Assembly (NCBI GenBank): GCA_030272155.1
Contig: CP126192.1
Location: 3,010,501 to 3,074,500, forward strand
From: Tetradesmus obliquus
Taxonomy: Eukaryota > Chlorophyta > Chlorophyceae > Sphaeropleales > Scenedesmaceae
Length of the DNA: 64,000 bases
Direction of reading: 5' to 3'
Shown here in pieces: positions 35,621 through 46,753 of the stretch. The notes under the pieces are model-generated. The model was not told the DNA's origin. It did not search any database and saw only the letters and a list, made by a program, of their open reading frames with translations. Made by a program: the position numbers and the translations under genes. Every line of letters begins with the position of its first letter. Position 1 is the first letter of the stretch.

Positions 35621-38129
35621 CTAGTTCCAAACTTTGTGCTCCTGCACTCGGATCCACTTGGTCACCGACCACTTGTCACACTTCAGCCTGCCGTCTGCGT
35701 TGCCGTCTGGGCACACGGGGCAGCCTGCGTGCAGGCTCTTTAGCTCCTTGCTGCTGCCGTCGGGCCGCAGGTTCCAGAACAGCAGGCAGTCGCCCTTGCG
35801 GGGCTTGACTGCAATGCCCTTCTTACCACACGCTGCAGCAAGGTGAGCAGAGCGTATGAAGGTCGCAGGGAAGCGCGGAAGATGCACCAGCCAACAGCAG
35901 GTCAGTGCATAGGGACTGCAGCGATGGCACATACCCAACAGCATGGCAAGCAATCCCAGCCATGTGCCCGCACACGAGTAAACCCTTGCAACCCTACATG
36001 CAGCAGTGCTGCGTACGACTGCAAATGCAGCAACCATGCTGTGCAGCGCCAGCAAGTATGCCCCACATCTGCCACCCACCGCTGAGCTGTGCCGCCTGCT
36101 CCTCAGTGGGCTTCTCCACACTGTTGGGGAACACCGTCTCGCCACCTGCGCCGCACCAGCAACATTTGCAAGCCACAATGGCATCATCACATCAAAATCA
36201 GGAACAATTGCAGCTACTCCGACTCTGACGCTTATAACCCATTGCTGACAAGGCCGCTTGCTGCCCCACAGAACCTAGGTGCACCTGGCAGCGGCACACT
36301 TCAACAGGAAGGGCATGACCTGCTGGCAATCAAGTATACTTGCGCTGAACTTTCTGAAGATGCACAATGCCGCATCGCTTCGTTGACAATGCCGATGCCT
36401 GTGCATCTCTTGCTGCTCCTCAGCTGTAGCTTCCAGCATGTGCTGCGCCAACGCTTGGCAGTTTGCTGCATGGCTCTGCATCCCCCTGCGCCCCGCACCT
36501 TGATCCACCTCGCTCAGGTAGAGCAGTGCTGTGGCCACGCGCTGCCCGCCGTTCTGCACGTTGACCGCGTCATGGAAGTAGTCCCAGTGCTCCACATACT
36601 GCTCACCCTCCTGGTAGTGCAACACCTGCAGCAGCAGCAGCAGCAGAAGCAGCAGAGCTAGATGCAGCATACGTGATGATCGACGGTGCTGCTGGCTCAG
36701 GATGCCACGCACTGGCACAGCTGGCTTGACCAGCAATGCATGCAGCCCCTGCTGGTGGGCACCGCTGCTGCCTGCTGAACGTGCCGGTGCACTTTGCAAC
36801 ACTTGTCGGGTGTTGCTGCTGTTCGCCTGCCGCTGCTGGGCCTGCTGCTGCAACTCTTGTTTCACCCCTGCTGCCGCAGCTGCCCCTGCTACGGCTGCTG
36901 CTGCTGCTACACGCCAGCTTTACCCGTGCTGCTGCTTCCGCGCTCCTGCTGCCTCTGCTCATGTTCCTGCTGCTGCTGCTGCTCACGTGGAAGGGCTCGC
37001 CATTGACCACCGGCAGCTTGGTCCACTCAGCGATGCGCTGCTCCAGGCGCTGCACGACCTCATCCTGGCCGCGCGACAGGAAGTGGCCGGAGCTGGTGCG
37101 GTCGCTGGCGCAGCAACCGTAACATAGCAGGCAGTGAATGGCACACCATATGTTTGTGTGGAGATTTGAGTGGTGGACCAAACAGCTGGATGCTTACAAT
37201 GCATGTATTGCTGACGAACACCACTGATGTCACCACCTCACAAAATCAGCCGCCGCCGCTGCCACAGCTCCCCGCTGGTCAACTGCTTGCCGTCAACAGC
37301 CAAACAAGCAGCCTTGGCCAACCTAAGCCTGTATATGCGACGATGGGTGCCTCACTTAAACACACAGCACGCCACGCAGGCGCAGTTCCATCTGGCAACG
37401 CTGGCATAGGTGGGGTGCTGGATGTACTCACAGTGTCTTCTTGAACTTGCCAGTGTCGCTGTCCACCACTTCGCTTTTCTTCATGTGTGGTTTGGCCTGC
37501 ATAGTCGGCGCGCCAGGTGAGCTAAGCACATTCATACTTTGGAACTGCCGCCGCTGCTGCTGCTGCTGCTGCTGCGTCAGGATACACCCTTACTTTAGGA
37601 CGGTGGGCTGGCACATGCTAATCAAGCAATTCACAGTCAGGAGCACAGCTGACGCACCAGGTTGATGATGTGGTCAGCTTCTTCCTCAGTGGCGAAGTTG
37701 TGGTACCTGCAGTACAAAAGCAGGCTCTTGCTGATCACCAACCACCAGGAGACAACAACATGGCGTGTTGTTAAACATGCAGCATATCACTTGTGTGAAG
37801 CGCGAGCTCAGCTGGTGAGCACCACGGTGCATTGCTGTGCATGCTGTCCAGAGAGCAGTTGCCCCTGCTGTGCTGTGCTGCTGCTGTTGTAACCATCGGC
37901 AAGCTCACAGGTAAGCCCTTGGCTCCCAGCTAAGCAGCTCAATCCACCCCTTTGTATCACCAAATGTTTCATTAGGATCGAAGTTCTCCCCGTGCCACCC
38001 AATGAACTCTTCATCGACACTCTCTCGGCGAGCAGAGGGTTGATCCTCGTCAGGGGAGAGGGACGAGATTTGTTGCAACGTCATAAGCAAGACTAAGAAG
38101 ACCAGCATGGATCGAGCCGCTCGTGTCAT
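35621..38129 (-). CDS. P4H: Prolyl 4-hydroxylase, complete, 7 exons, 285 aa
   Basis: Minus-strand exons are 38129-37909, 37706-37658, 37496-37432, 37104-36987, 36625-36499, 36145-36080 and 35832-35621. All phases close. The N-terminus has a hydrophobic signal or anchor (about residues 8-24), then LLSWEPRAYLYHNF, typical of algal and plant P4Hs. The Fe(II) ligands are H164 and D166 (EHWDYF) and H250 (SLHAGCPV). The 2-oxoglutarate Lys is most likely K269 (DKWSVTKW). RTSSGHFLSRGQDE and GGETVFPN are family signatures. The enzyme hydroxylates proline in secreted Hyp-rich wall proteins, in the ER or Golgi. An oddity is that the H-to-K spacing is 19 residues rather than the usual 10, because of a Cys-flanked CPDGNADGRLKC insert. 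The gene is head to head with MKS1. Confidence 0.92.
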
Positions 38130-38469: not shown

Positions 38470-39982
38470 ATGGAGGACGCAAGGACCGTTCACTATGTCA
38501 CTCAGGACCCGATGGCACACTTGAAGCTGAAGGTCACCTTGACTAGGCTGAGCGCTGCCAAGTCAAAGGTTCAGCAGGACCAGGTGTGCAATTCATCACC
38601 ATGTTGTCTGAACTGAGAACATCAATCAATCCAGTAGAAATTCACCACCGTTTATTGCCTTTTTGCTAGGGATCTGCTCAAGATGTCGCAGCACCTGCTG
38701 GAGCATCAGGGCAAGGCAGTAGCGCTGCAGATGCAGCGGCAGCAACAACAGCGACAGGAACAGGCAGCAGTCGGCCTTCAGGCAGGCCAGCGCCGTTTCA
38801 GGTGTCTAGGACATTCTCGTGGCAGGAGAAGGTGTACAGCAAGGCTGAGCTGGTAGCAGCTCAGGTGGGCTTGCAGGAAACACCAGCCTGCGAGGCACAC
38901 TTGGCCTTAATGTTGGTGCTGCCAGGCTGCTGGCGTGGCCTGGGCTGCACAGAGACATAATCACATATGCAGCAGAAAAGCAAATACTGACTGCAAGCGT
39001 CTTGCCATGGCAAGCTGCACGTCATCTTGCTTACTATACACTGTTGCATGTGCACGCCTTCGAATGCAGGCGCACATCAGGAGCAGCCAGCAGGGAGCTC
39101 AGTTCATGTCGCCCAAGCGCACTGCACACTTCGGCTCGCAGTCGCACATCGGCACAGATAGGCTGCTGGTGAGAGGCAGCTGCAGATGCAGCAGGCAACT
39201 GCTGCAACCTCATCTGTGAACATATGCAGCAGCTGTTTGCAGGAACAGCTACTGCCGAAGCTGATCATCATTTTCTGTAACCCACAGCAGCGGCACATTC
39301 TTTCGGCTGCTCACGAGAGTACCTATTATTACATTGCAGTTGGCTGCATGCAGGACATGGGGTTGGCAGGCAGTGCTGCTTAATGTGCCAAACCACAATT
39401 GCTGTGATTATGTCTGATGTTTGCTTGCAGACCGCAGGCCCAGATGGCTCGCTGCTCTTCAGCTATGTGCAGACAGACGACTTCTGCGAGAGGTATGAGA
39501 CCAGCAGAAGCATAACCACCAGCAGGTGGGAGGGCCAAAACCACCTGGCAAACAAACTGCTGGTCGATCCACGCAACAGGCAGAAGGTAGGCAGCTGGGC
39601 GCCTCAAACCAGCACTCAGCAGCAGCACAAGTACGAGCAAGGGCACCCCGAGCGCTGCCAGTTTGCCTTCATTGCTAGCAGCCGTGCCAGCTAACCTGCA
39701 CTGCTGCTGCTTTTGCGCCGGCCATGATGCTGCCGATAGAAGCAGCCAACAGCTGCCAATGGCCAATCGTGTGTTTGCTGCTGCTGCCGCAGATGCTCAA
39801 CTTCCACTCCATGTTCATCATGGCTGACCTTGGAGATCAGCACACCGTAGCAGGCAGCAACGAGAAGGTGCTTGCAGTAATACGTGCACACAGGGATGGC
39901 AGCTTCGACATGACGCCAGGGTTCAACGCACCTGGCCAGAAGACGCGCTTTGAGGATGACCATGGTGGGCAGTACGCCTGGC

Positions 39983-40021
<39 letters not shown>

Positions 40022-43000
40022 GTGTTGCTAGCGCCCATTGTCAACGAAACCTGCTTTGGTGCTTACAATTCTGCTGCAAGCAGTGCAGCCAGCAACCAAG
40101 GCTTACCAGCACTGCAGCGAACCGCTGTTATGGCAGCATGCATGCCTGACGCGCAAGTGCAGCTGGCACATGCACTGCAACCAACAGCTGCAGTGTGCCA
40201 GCGGTGCTGTCGCAGCATGGCAGTGCAGGTTGCATCGATTGCCTGCCGCCATGCAGCCCACAGCCTGCCAACTATCATACAGGAATTTCTATGTCGGATG
40301 TGTGCTGTCCTGCAGGCGGCATCTATGAGTACACGATTGAGCTGGCCTCTCGGGGTGCCGCACCCTGCTTAGAGCGGCGCACTGCCAAGCTGGCAGGAGC
40401 AGTAGCTGAGGAGATGCGGCGCAACCAGAGCAGCATGATGGAGCACTCACCTCCACCAGGTGCGGTGCTGCACCGCAAAAAAAATTTGTAAAACAAGGAG
40501 CAGCAGCTGATACTCAACCTTCAGCAGCTGTGCTTTTAATAGATGGCTGCTTCGATGACGCAACACCCTGCCTGCCTGCACTTTCGCCAGGCCCTGATGG
40601 TGCTGCGCTGCGGCTGCTGCTGCTGGCTGAGCTGGTGTCAGCAGCTGGCTTTCAGAGGGACAGGCTGTACGTGGAGTGGCAGCTGCGCTTTGACCCGGAG
40701 CTCTGGGTGCTGCAGCACAGCGAGCAGGAGGTGCTGCAGCCGGGGCTGATACAGGTGTGCAGTGCGAGCCACTGCGCAGCCACCTACACGCTTTTGTGGA
40801 GGGCACAGCAGCAGCAGTAGCAGTGACGTGCAGCCATGCACTGCAAATTGAATGGCAAGCTGGCAGCAAACGTTTTCTGACGTATGTGTATGGACGAGAT
40901 GGCCATGCAGCAGGCGTGTCGAGGGAGCTTGTCAGTGTTGATCAAGGCAGTGCCTTTGTTTGTCTCATGTATTGTGCTGTGCAGGGTGTGACGCATGTCT
41001 CACAGATGACCCAGTACCCCCCTGATGCAACAAACGACACGCCAGCGCTGTGGGTGGCACATTTTGCGCACCCCATAGAGGTGGAGTGGGTGGCACGCAC
41101 AGCACCCGCACCCAAGGACTGGCCGCGCCTGCTGCTGCAAGTGAGGAAGCAGCAGCTCACATCATCCAGGGAAAGAGGCAACTGCACTGGTTTTGACGTT
41201 GCGTCTGTGTTGTTGTCAGCATGCGTTGCGACTGTGTGCCTGTACTCTACATTTGCTGCAGCGGGAGCTAAATGTGCGTCTGTGCTACGCTGCTGATGCT
41301 GATGCTGATGCTGATGCAGGTGTGCACATATGATCTGTGGGACCGTGTCACCACAGAGGGTTATGGATGGCTGCAGCTGAGCAGCAGCAGCTCAGGCAGC
41401 TGCACCCATTATGTAGACACCTGGAAACCTTTGGGTGGGTACTGCTCGAGTCTGCACAGCATGTAGCTTGACCCACATCTTCTTGTTGACATGCAATCAC
41501 TGCAAGTTGTGTAGAGGGACAGCTGACCATTGGTGCAGGTTGTTTTGTCCAACAGTGGAGATCACCTGTCTCTCATTCACATGTGCTGCTGCTGGGGGTG
41601 CAGGCACGCGGCGTGACCAGCAGCAGGCCTTCTTCATTGGCGGCAGTGAGGAGCTGGCTGACATGAGCTATGCTGCAGTGCCAAAGGGGCACAAAGGCCG
41701 TGTGCTCAACAAGTGCGGCTACAAAACGCAAACAGCAGGCACAGTCAAGGTGTGCATTCTTGCTGCTGACATGCAGGGCGCTGCCAGCACGGCATAGTGC
41801 TGCTCGTGAACCGGCAGGGCAGTTGCAGGATGTGAGCAAGTAGCAGGGCTGCTGACTGCGTAGTGTTGAGCAGGTATATTAGCATTGATGCACGCAACTT
41901 CCACAAGGCTGTGAGTCCTTGGGCAGAAACTCCTGCTCAAAGCAGGAGGAGTTATGCCCTGTGCATCGGCACGAGTTGGTCAGCTGTAGTTTTGTATACA
42001 ACGTGGTACAATGCCGCTGCCTTTGTTCCGTGCAGGTGCGTGTGAACAGTGTAGTGCAGGGTGGATCCTCAGGCAGGACATCTCCGCGCAAGGCGCCGGC
42101 AAACAAGTGGCCTGCCAACAACAGGCGGCACCGGGAGCTCAGCCTGGCTGTGGTGCTGGAGCGAGCGCATGCACGCCTCAGGGTGAGGACAGCGTCTGTT
42201 GCATCCTCAGGAAAAAACACAGCGCTGTCTAGAGGCTGTTGCCGCCGGCCTGTGGCCATGGTGCAGTATACATGGTGCATGGCATGGCTCGCGCGCTTCA
42301 TCAGGCCCTTGAAGGTGCTGCTCTGAAAAGGGCCCAGGCTCTGCTGCCGAGCCTCCCCCCGTCTCTCTCCTTCTGTTCCTCTCTCATTCTCCCGACTGGG
42401 AAAACTCAATCATTACAGTGCATTGCCGTGCCTGACTTCCTGTCTGCAGGAAGCACGTGGCGGCGAGGTAGAAGTGCGTGAAGGCGTTGTGTCGCAGCGG
42501 CCTGCTGTGACAGTGCAGCCGGCAGATGTGACAGTGGATGAGGGCGGCAATGCGCAGCTGTCCATAACAGCAACGGTGAGCAATAGCAGCCAACAACTCA
42601 CTGGCTGCCTCAGCTGTGTGGTGTCCCAGCAAACCCTTTGCACAACATAGTTCTGCTGGTGTGTGCCACATCAGGCCTCCCATTTGTTGACACCATTGAC
42701 GGCCAGAATGATTGATGTGCGAGCTGCATGCAAGAAGTGTTGTGGCTGGTGCGTGTAAGTATGCCCCTTGGCTGACCTAGACGCAAATAAATAAGCTGCT
42801 GCACCGCCATTGCGTTGCCATCTGCTGCTGTCAGGGCATGGGTCCGCTGCGTTATCAGTGGTTCAAGGACAGCAAGCGGCTGACAGTGGCCACTTCTGAC
42901 ACACCGCTGCTGGTGCTGGTGGACGTGGGTGTCAGTGACAGCGGCACCTACTACTGCCAGGTCTCAAACAAGGACGGCGCAGTGTGCAGCAGCAAGGCGC

Positions 43001-43900
43001 TGCTGAACATCACACGCATCGGGCGCGTGCAGCATGCAGCTAGGGCAGTGACAACAGCAGCAGAGGCAGGCGGCAGCAGTGGGGACCAGGCAGCATCGCC
43101 ACTGGTGGGCTTGGGTTGCAGGCTTGAGGTCTGTGGTGTCACTGCCCAGCATCTGTGCAGCAACTCACCATAGTTTGCATGTTCAGATTGCGTTCAGTGT
43201 TGTAACTGTCCAAACGATGCTTCCAGACACTGCTGGATACACATCCGCCTCATGTCTGCGTTTTGTTCCGTGGTCACTCCTGTGCCTGCAGCTGTCCCCG
43301 CTGTCCAACACGCTTACCAAGCGGACGACAGTGCCGCGCAGCTTAGCATCCAGGCCAGGTGGCAGCCTGCCATACAGCCCGCGCTTCGGAGGCAGGAGCA
43401 GCAGCGGCAGCCCTTCTGTGTCAGGCACGACGTCACCACTGTGCGGCTCCTGGACAGGCCTGCAGCCTGTGGCAGGGCGCTTTGCAGGCGCTGCTGCCGC
43501 TGCGGGGCCTGGTGAAGGAAGTCTTGTGCAGCCTTCAGTCGCTGGTGGCAGTGCACTTGGCGGCTGGGCTGCAGGAAATGCAGCTGGCAGTCCGCTGAGG
43601 CGCAGCAGGCAGCTGGCACCCATACCGCCGCCCGAGGCGCAGCAGCAGGCAGCAGCAGAGCAGCAGACACAGCAGCAGCTGGTGCAAGGACATGATGCAG
43701 AAGTACAGCAGGAGCTGCAGCCGCAGCAACAGCCTGATCTGCTGCAGCAGTCACCCAGTGGACGGCTGGGTTGGGCAGCTGCAGCAGGTGCTGCAGCAGC
43801 TTCTGCACCTCCACGGCAAGAAAGCAGCAATGAGGGAGCAGCTGCAGGAGCATCTCTGGCAAGAGCACCTCGCCGCTCGCGAGTGTCAGAGCAACATTGA
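38470..43900 (+). CDS. MKS1: MKS1 (B9-domain transition-zone protein) with Ig-like C-terminus
   Basis: Exons are 38470-38583, 38670-38864, 39070-39168, 39431-39586, 39793-39964, 40316-40459, 40591-40754, 40985-41140, 41320-41434, 41604-41749, 42036-42182, 42450-42575, 42835-43104 and 43292-43900. All phases close, giving 870 residues. The start (YVTQDPMAHLKLKVTL), the WQEK segment, FHSMFIMADLG, the B9 domain (about 298-487) and FFIGGSEELADMSY all track human MKS1 in order. MKS1 acts in the ciliary transition zone. Beyond residue 536, where known MKS1 proteins end, the model enters an I-set-like immunoglobulin domain (about 554-638). This has W587 and a DSGTYYC motif with C619, but no Cys in the B strand. 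A Gln/Ala/Ser-rich tail (about 670-870) follows. Exons 1-11 are secure; the Ig exons could instead be a separate gene. Confidence 0.88.
39986..40021. repeat. (CTG)12 microsatellite in MKS1 intron 5
   Basis: Twelve TGC/CTG units lie just after the donor of the fifth MKS1 intron. Confidence 0.85.
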
Positions 43901-44598
43901 GCAGTGCAGCTGTAGCTGAAGCCCCTGCGTTGGCTCATCATGCCCAGGCCCTTCTGTTCTACTGCATGGCTTATTGGCTGAATAGCTGAAGCACCCTTTG
44001 GATGACAATCCTGTGTACGGGTTTCAGGTGCTTTGCGCACACATGCTGCATCTGGGTGTACCACAGAACATAGGACTGCGGACCTGCTGCTGCTCAGGTG
44101 GGTGCTGCAGGTTGACATAGGAGAACGCTGCTTTGCAACCAATTTGTTGGCAACCCATGCATTCATACGGCATTCATACGGCAGTCGTATTGGTTGAATG
44201 TGAAGCATGCCATCTTGGGATGGGCCTTGCTGGCATGCTATCTTTGATTGGGCCACCTGCCTGTCTTTCCAGATGTCCTCCGTTGCATTGCTTGCTCCTG
44301 TATCATTGCTGCTTTTGATTGACATCTTTCAATGGTTCTGGCTACAAACGCAGTGCAACCGCACACAGCATCGTGGACCTGCACAGCTCGAAACCCTAAT
44401 CCTTTACACTGCTAGGCAGCGTCAATTAGCGTCGTGTTTGCTTGAGACACAGCATACATGCCACGAAGACGTCTGTCCCGTACCAAATAGCACATCTAAT
44501 TCTCCTGCGTACATGCGTGTATCGCAGCTGCAGCAGTCAATCATCGCAGTGCGACACATCATTGACAAGGCTGGCGCAGTCGCGGTGCCGACCGCCTA
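43901..44598. other. Intergenic, MKS1 to coiled-coil gene
   Basis: 698 bases between genes on the same strand, with no supported gene. It should hold the MKS1 3' UTR and the next promoter. Two short GGCATTCATACGGCA-like blocks repeat near 44159-44184. Confidence 0.4.
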
Positions 44599-46753
44599 AT
44601 GACAGCAGACGTTGCTGCAGATGCTGTTGCAGCATCTGGTGATGTTGCAGCTGCTGGGGCAACAGGGCCCACAGCAGCAAAGGCACCAAGCAGCGCAGTG
44701 AGTGGACTTGCAACCAGGCTTGCCCTGCGCGTATACACTGGTCAGGAACTGCTTAAACGTTGATTGATTGACTCGAAGCCCATTTACAGGCCAAGCCTGA
44801 CCCTAAGAAAAACGTTGGCAAGGAGAAGGCAAAGTAAGTAGCGCTTGTGCAGCGGCTGTGCAGGCCGCCTGCACAGGCTGATGAATTCCACCTCTGCTGT
44901 CTGTGCAACAAGCTGCAGCGGGCTAAGGTGTCAAATGATGTGTTGACGCAGGCAACGAAACAGGGCCATATCACTGATCCAGAAGTATGCTGGAACTTAC
45001 GCAGTGAGTTGCAGACATCGCAGCAGTGAACCTGACCCAGGCGGGACCACAGCGTATGCTTTGGTGCTGCTCACATTGTGTCCTGATCATCACTGATGCT
45101 TTGACTCGTGCGCATGTTGCAGAAAGAAGGGCAGAAGACGAAATGGGTGGTGGACCTTGTCATGAAGATAGATGAGGAGTACAAGCAGGAGCTGGTGTCT
45201 AGGCGACAGACCATTGTAGGTCGCTCGTTTCTGACGTCAGCACTTAGAAATGACCGCAACATAAGCAACGATTAAGCCCACAGCATGCAGTGATGGCTGA
45301 TTGGTAGCCATATCCCTGGACCCTGTACAGCAGCAGTAGCAGCAGTAGCGGCATACTATGAATTCACACTGAAGCTGTTGCGCATACTGTTTTCGTGTGT
45401 TGCTCTACTACAGGACTCCCTGCAGCACCAGCTGCAGGACTTGCAGGAAAGCAGTAGCAAAGCCCTGCACAAAGTGCAGCAGCAGGCGCAAGCGTTACAT
45501 CTCAAGGTGCAGGAGCAGGAGCTGGAGATCTACAACACCACATATGCTCTGCATAATGCCCAGGTGAGGTTCAACTGGGCGCACACAAAACACCGCAGGC
45601 AGGCGCAGCGGCTACATCAGCAGCAACAGAGCAGAGCAGCAAGTGTTGTTTAACGGATAGCATATGCCGCAATGCTGTCGGCGTGCTTCAGCGCCGGCAG
45701 ACGCACTGATTGCATCACGCGCTTTGTGAGCAGAGCATGTGCAACGCTCTGTCGTTCCCCAAATGCAGGCGCAGCATGCAGTGATGCAGCAGTCGCTGCA
45801 CTACGCAGAGGAGGCTGCAGCGACAGCCAACTCGGAGTGCGCAACGCTGGCAGCAGCAGTGCAGGCGATGACGGAGCAGGACGCGCGTGCGCGCTGCGGA
45901 CTGGCGCACCGCGCGCACCACCTGCGGGATGCGCTGCTGCAGACCAGCGCAGCGCTGCGGCAGTTCAATGACAGGGACAGGAAAGAGCGCAATGAGGTGG
46001 GCACGGTGCGGTGCCTGCCTGCACAGCAAAGGCTATGCCGCCACTTGGTTGTATTGCTGTGCCAGGCGCACTCACTTGGCATGAACCTGCGACTGGGACT
46101 GCAATTGGAATTATACGAGATGGTACAGCGTGTGCTGCTTGCAGAGGCTTGTGTGCACTGGCATGTCCCCTGCCAGGCATCATCGCCAAATGCATGCATT
46201 GCAAAGTTCTGCGTCAGGCACACGTGCTGCTGCCGCTGCTGCTCTCTGCTGCAGAGGGAGCTGCGGCTGAAGGACAAGGAGCGAGCGCTGCTGGCAGAGC
46301 GCGCCGCACTGCTGGAGCAGCAGGCAGTGCAGCAGGCGCGCGATGCTGCGCTGGAGACGCTGCAGCTGAAGTACCACCTGTGCGCGCAGAAGATCAAGCA
46401 GTGAGCAACAACATGCAAATTTGCTGGCAGCAACACGTGGCTGCCCGCCTGGGCAGCAACCACCTTGACAAGCGCGTCCTCGCATATGAACTGTTCATGA
46501 TGGTTATGCTGGCAACGCAAGTTCTGCTTACTGCTCAGCCGCTGAAACAGTGGCTGTTTGTATAAATGTTGCTGCCAACATGACTGCTGCATGCAGGTTG
46601 CGTGCCTCGGCATCAGAGAAACCAGATGCACCAGCAGGCCCAGGAGCTCTGCAGCCTGCAGCAGGGCCTGCATTGAGCGACCAGCAACCTAAGCTGGGCC
46701 CAAGCCATGCAGACAGGCAGCGGCAGCCTATGCCCGCTCAGCTGGCAGCATAG
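44599..46753 (+). CDS. Coiled-coil protein, 7 exons, about 305 aa
   Basis: Exons are 44599-44697, 44790-44833, 45123-45215, 45414-45563, 45769-45996, 46255-46400 and 46597-46753. The N-terminus is Ala-rich, then Lys-rich (KPDPKKNVGKEKA). From KWVVDLVMKIDEEYKQEL onward the protein is almost one continuous coiled coil to LKYHLCAQKIKQ, and it ends in a Pro/Ala/Gln tail. Charged coils with a Lys-rich head are common in axonemal and basal-body proteins such as the small DRC/CCDC families, but I cannot assign it. All junctions except one are in phase: joining 44833 to 45123 is one base short. Keeping the G at 44834 (or at 45122) restores the frame and gives 305 residues. That would need a non-canonical intron, a missed microexon or a sequence error. 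Confidence 0.65.

Follow-up and report, generated by a model that had tools for sequence, protein, structure and literature searches.

We analyzed a window of 64,000 nucleotides from the green alga Tetradesmus obliquus (contig CP126192.1 of assembly GCA_030272155.1, positions 3,010,501 to 3,074,500 of the forward strand; coordinates below are those of the window unless another contig is named) and found that positions 38470-43900 of the + strand read as one gene, with 14 exons, 13 GT-AG introns, consistent phases, and a product of 870 amino acids (aa). The gene joins sequence of MKS1, a ciliary gate protein whose defects lead to human ciliopathies, to an immunoglobulin (Ig) domain. Of the gene models considered, an in-frame fusion of MKS1 and Ig fits best: it is supported by splice scores, by phase and frame, by the lack of an initiation codon in the Ig frame, and by an Ig domain that spans a splice junction of its own. 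We consider it likely that this fused gene encodes a single cytosolic 870-aa product made up of a complete MKS1, one Ig domain, and a low-complexity tail. A first-pass annotation of the sequence had proposed such a fusion, and it had correctly placed the end of exon 11 at 42182 in phase 0 and the starts of exons 12 and 13 at 42450 and 42835. The parts of the gene are as follows.

38470-38583 (+), exon 1: aa 1-38, starting with ATG
38670-38864 (+), exon 2: aa 39-103, Ala/Thr/Ser low-complexity sequence, then a WQEK motif in common with human MKS1
39070-39168 (+), exon 3: aa 104-136
39431-39586 (+), exon 4: aa 137-188
39793-39964 (+), exon 5: aa 189-245, with an IMADLG motif in common with human MKS1
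40316-40459 (+), exon 6: aa 246-293
40591-40754 (+), exon 7: aa 294-348, in which B9-C2 begins
40985-41140 (+), exon 8: aa 349-400, B9-C2
41320-41434 (+), exon 9: aa 401-438, B9-C2
41604-41749 (+), exon 10: aa 439-487, B9-C2
42036-42182 (+), exon 11: aa 488-536; B9-C2 ends at aa 492, followed by a C-terminal stretch weakly alignable to the end of human MKS1
42183-42449 (+), intron 11, the fusion junction: 267 nt, donor GG|GTGAGG, acceptor CTGCAG|G
42450-42575 (+), exon 12: aa 537-578, linker, then the N-terminal portion of the Ig domain
42835-43104 (+), exon 13: aa 579-668, remainder of the Ig domain (YQWFKD ... DSGTYYCQVSN), after which the tail begins
43292-43900 (+), exon 14: aa 669-870 and the stop codon (43898-43900), low-complexity tail

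The introns of the gene span 86-351 nt, and intron 11 lies inside this range. Its two splice sites were scored with a held-out model, for which introns 1-10 served as the sole training set and which was then applied to introns 11-13. The donor at 42182 was the best of 24 GT dinucleotides in 42036-42449 and fell in the top 5.8% of the 3470 GT in the whole window; the acceptor at 42450 was the best of 21 AG in 42240-42575 and fell in the top 1.1% of 5190 AG window-wide. Codon scores were obtained from a model trained on exons 1-11, so that exon 11 is inside its training set. The called frame had the highest score of the six frames in each of exons 11-14 (0.49, 0.12, 0.40, and 0.15, respectively), and introns 11, 12, and 13 scored at most 0.07 in any of the six frames.

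The first-pass annotation had noted that no stop codon separates the MKS1 and Ig parts. This holds after splicing; unspliced exon 11 reads 47 codons into intron 11 and meets a stop at 42324-42326. One alternative to the fused gene builds on this stop: MKS1 would terminate within exon 11 or shortly beyond it, and the Ig exons would form a separate short downstream gene, whose first exon could be supplied by ATG 42258 or ATG 42279 together with a donor at 42314, spliced in phase to 42450. This donor scores 3.8, compared with 6.3 for 42182, and it lacks the G at position +5 that is found at all 13 modelled donors. Altogether, a separate Ig transcript could begin in phase from eight combinations of an ATG (at position 41750 at least) with a donor, which involve seven distinct donors. 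All of these donors score below 42182 (the best 4.5 and 3.8, versus 6.3), and the six phase-compatible ones other than 42314, paired with an ATG in 41750-42449, range from 4.5 down to -6.7. Between 42327 and 42575 the Ig frame has no ATG; its first one encodes residue 2 of exon 13, in the middle of the domain. The annotated absence of a clear new start is therefore right for the Ig frame itself, but an extra 5' exon within intron 11 could supply one, with a worse donor. Intron 11 also lacks TGTAA, the polyadenylation word of green algae, though the word is equally absent past the stop codon of the gene. We regard two separate genes as improbable.

The same in-frame stop would give a protein of ordinary MKS1 length if intron 11 were retained or the transcript polyadenylated early, and with a fusion donor of only mid-strength, the locus could produce plain MKS1 together with a minor fused form. 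Against such alternative forms, the whole of intron 11 scores as non-coding in the exon-11 frame (-0.17) as well as in the other two + frames (-0.27 and -0.22), and we give them little credence.

The MKS1 part of the fusion was identified from its domain and from its overall similarity to the human protein. In the 870-aa protein, B9-C2 (PF07162) was matched at aa 304-492 with 108.8 bits (cut-off 27). The human MKS1 reference was an approximate sequence rather than a database copy; the human protein is 559 aa long and has no Ig domain. Local alignment against this approximate sequence, which ran from aa 9 to aa 539, scored 334, whereas none of 200 shuffles exceeded 59 (their maximum). The algal protein thus has the MKS1-type N-terminal region before B9, where the alignment begins at aa 9, and it shares with human MKS1 the blocks WQEK, IMADLG, EGYG, FFIGGS.EL.D.SY, and GTV. 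It resembles MKS1 in this similarity along the full length and in its single C-terminal B9-C2 domain, and differs in having approximately 330 additional residues (the Ig domain and low-complexity tail), whereas the human protein ends 16 residues beyond the last aligned position. The annotated statement that MKS1 proteins known so far stop after B9 agrees with human MKS1, the one protein compared. The Pfam B9 match stops at aa 492, and the MKS1 homology beyond it comes from the pairwise alignment to the approximate human sequence only. The end of this alignment (ERAHARLR|EAR versus RRARRRMQEAR) runs three residues past the 42182/42450 junction, and homology that crosses the junction in this way may point to continuous coding, although we regard it as suggestive only. 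No solved structure matched the MKS1 part (best E 0.89). When this human sequence was compared with five published variant positions, Phe371, Cys492, Arg123, and Ile450 agreed and Asp83 disagreed (PMC8465569).

An Ig domain with W and DSGTYYC motifs had been annotated downstream of the junction, and its presence was borne out by Pfam. In the full 870-aa model, Ig_3 matched aa 554-623 with 43.8 bits (cut-off 30), I-set with 36.6 bits (cut-off 23.7), and Ig_2 with 28.5 bits (cut-off 27), while V-set and ig remained under their cut-offs. When exons 12 and 13 were scanned as a single 132-aa piece, Ig_3 rose to 47.7 bits, and Ig_3, I-set, Ig_2, V-set, and ig all passed. Because several cut-offs are passed both in the full model and in the joined exons, the Ig match is far beyond chance. 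Exon 12 scanned alone had no Pfam match, and exon 13 alone gave Ig_3 at 26.1 bits, under the cut-off, and Ig_2 at 29.0 bits, over the cut-off of 27. Joining the two exons therefore gains approximately 21 bits for Ig_3, which supports both the splice at 42575/42835 and the reading frame assigned to the two exons.

The strand-C Trp (YQW) and the strand-F Tyr-x-Cys (DSGTYYC) of an Ig fold are both present. The position on strand B reads LSITA, without a Cys, and the F-strand Cys is retained; the canonical B-F disulfide therefore cannot form, which would fit a cytosolic protein. The missing Cys is no bar to an Ig fold, because the bacterial and tail-protein domains compared below also lack it. Approximately 60 residues separate the B9 domain from the start of the Ig domain, and behind the latter lies a tail of 229 residues rich in A, S, G, Q, and P. 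No Pfam match was found in the exon 14 tail, which is probably disordered to judge from its composition, and the protein has no clear membrane span (highest 19-residue hydropathy 1.35). The weak acceptor at 42835 and the low codon score of exon 12 would suit a further reading, in which the Ig exons are decayed remnants that are spliced by chance or unused. The Ig core (YQW, DSGTYYC) is nevertheless kept and scores above the Pfam cut-off across an intron, and exons 12-14 are open over all of their 334 codons, so that decay is very improbable.

Related genes were sought in the whole genome (104,662,953 bases, 17 contigs) exon by exon, a procedure that could miss domains split by introns. The Ig searches used PF13927 and PF07679 only, and their 14 control genomes were silent, as they were in the searches for B9, meckelin, and tectonic. 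Ig_3 had a single match, exon 13 of the MKS1-Ig gene, and I-set matched the MKS1-Ig locus and a weak place on contig C10 (16.2 bits, E 0.86, cut-off 23.7). We rejected the latter (C10:3799697-3799789, locus L019) as a second Ig domain; it is below the cut-off, and its opposite strand is RRM-like when judged by eye, so we take the match to be spurious. The + strand at this place carries a C...W pattern that resembles Ig strands B-C. A second copy of MKS1 or of the Ig domain was likewise rejected, as all 13 matches to aa 1-668 (E up to 0.1) were pieces of the MKS1-Ig gene. The other B9 matches, distinct from MKS1, were a B9D2-like gene on C4 and a B9D1-like gene on C5, labels that we presume from a reading against approximate reference sequences. 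In having no second copy found in the genome and B9D1- and B9D2-like genes alongside, the algal protein again resembles MKS1. Meckelin (TMEM67) was found at C15:4080984-4084324 (+), with three exon matches over the cut-off. In addition, C3:1330557-1331059 (-) (loci L006 and L007) may hold a fourth, divergent B9-C2-like gene, with two exon matches of 27.3 and 26.4 bits, near the cut-off of 27.

Several observations weigh against this reading of the gene and its product. The donor at 42182 is of moderate strength by its window-wide rank, and two acceptors are weaker, 42835 (top 29.8%) and 43292 (top 11.3%); acceptor 38670, one of the ten used in training, is equally weak (top 31.4%). An initial splice model, over-fitted on ten introns and using a 16-base acceptor, put acceptor 42450 second among the 29 candidates in 42190-42600 and scored acceptor 42835 at only 0.2; it ranked donor 42182 second of 48 in 41750-42450, behind 42035 at exon 11's own acceptor. 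The tail has a low coding score (0.15), and long open frames are found on its opposite strand as well. Exon 13 alone passes the Ig_2 cut-off, so the gain from joining it to exon 12 is confined to the other models. The C-terminal MKS1 piece taken alone was equalled by 123 of 2000 shuffles. No TGTAA occurs from the stop codon to 46000 (43900-46000), yet there is one each in intron 12 (42754) and intron 13 (43201); we regard the word as uninformative on the fusion. A tectonic profile search of the genome found none, which, with a silent control, does not show absence; Chlamydomonas has one tectonic according to a published study (PMC9271036). Finally, the docking function considered below is one that we infer.

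We also compared the algal Ig domain with Ig domains from other sources, in one BLOSUM62 comparison in which 14 bacterial and viral-contig loci represented nine distinct domains, repeats being counted once. Scores were 72-113 for the seven animal domains (26-38% identity), 126-136 for the three 9ncf and 9c2d domains (39-43%), and 86-169 for the nine bacterial/viral-contig domains (30-44%), where the bacterial domains come from genomes picked for matching, the domain is short, the sampling is uneven, and the eukaryotic domains are animal only. The four highest bacterial scores (151-169) came from metagenome-assembled genomes of Didemnitutus and Labilithrix. As five of the nine bacterial/viral-contig domains (86-116) overlap the animal range of 72-113, a clear excess over that range is seen only for these four and for the three tail-type domains from the PDB (126-136). 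In a domain-by-domain comparison of five of 17 PDB sequences (E up to 1e-10), all seven domains of 9ncf_S and 9c2d_S matched the algal Ig at 28-41 bits, and stretches of titin, sidekick-1, and LRIG1 reached at most 29.5 bits. Among 50,697 phage records, 26 matched the Ig domain; the ten matches listed had 37-40% identity, and four of those ten are annotated as tail proteins. Pattern scans for the fusion outside this genome, which detect close relatives only, confirmed for the Ig part 1 of 21 candidates in viral contigs and 3 of 361 candidates in bacteria and archaea, and for the MKS1 part none of four candidate stretches in viral contigs.

The best seven matches to Ig_3-type domains of bacteria and tail proteins (the Didemnitutus and Labilithrix genomes, the 9c2d_S tail protein, and 9ncf_S) have 39-44% identity over 76-88 residues, and the B-strand Cys is absent on both sides. 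The arrangement is different: the Didemnitutus genome and the PDB chains have several or many Ig copies in long proteins, whereas the alga has a single copy, interrupted by an intron and carried by a cytosolic eukaryotic protein. The animal Ig domains (titin, LRIG1, sidekick-1) belong to the same Ig clan by Pfam and by sequence and have the W and Y.C motifs in common with the algal domain, but their identity to it is 26-38%, and six of the seven have the B-strand Cys that the algal Ig lacks. The annotated term "I-set-like" is thus roughly right, in that I-set passes its cut-off, but the top Pfam model is Ig_3, and the nearest domains compared are bacterial or tail-protein domains rather than animal ones. 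On sequence grounds, we lean toward a bacterial-type Ig domain, one that was probably gained once and possibly from a bacterial or phage source. A fuller scenario, in which an Ig of bacterial or phage type entered an algal lineage by horizontal transfer, acquired an intron, and was fixed in a core transition-zone protein as a new docking surface on the ciliary gate, is tentative and on balance doubtful.

On either side of the gene, other coding sequence was observed. At 37908-38129 (-), approximately 340 bases upstream of the MKS1 start, a divergent gene has a signal-peptide-like start, and its product, which had no Pfam match, presumably resembles the N terminus of a prolyl 4-hydroxylase. Downstream, the gene that probably comes next lies at 44599-45653 (+), on the strand of MKS1-Ig, and has a product that looks coiled-coil-like by eye; one of its open frames, 45294-45653, had no Pfam match.

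By analogy with other eukaryotes, the MKS1 part would join B9D1 and B9D2 in a complex at the ciliary transition zone. In the simplest reading, the Ig domain and tail, placed just past B9, could then serve as an added protein-docking module on the B9 complex, and this module might link the complex to another transition-zone or membrane-proximal partner as flagellate cells form. Taken by itself, the docking role has in our estimate about an even chance.

MKS1 is a widely conserved transition-zone protein; according to a published survey (PMC4092220), more than half of ciliated organisms from five of six eukaryotic supergroups have it. No description of an MKS1-Ig fusion was found in the titles and abstract openings listed by an open-access full-text library, which covers few subscription journals and no sequence-database annotation, and within these limited searches, the combination of MKS1, Ig domain, and tail has apparently not been described before. 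If the fusion is real, a lineage with a cytosolic Ig domain on MKS1 would be a natural experiment on the possible wiring of the B9 complex. If Chlamydomonas or another tractable flagellate alga has the same Ig domain, its function would be open to test by removal of the domain.

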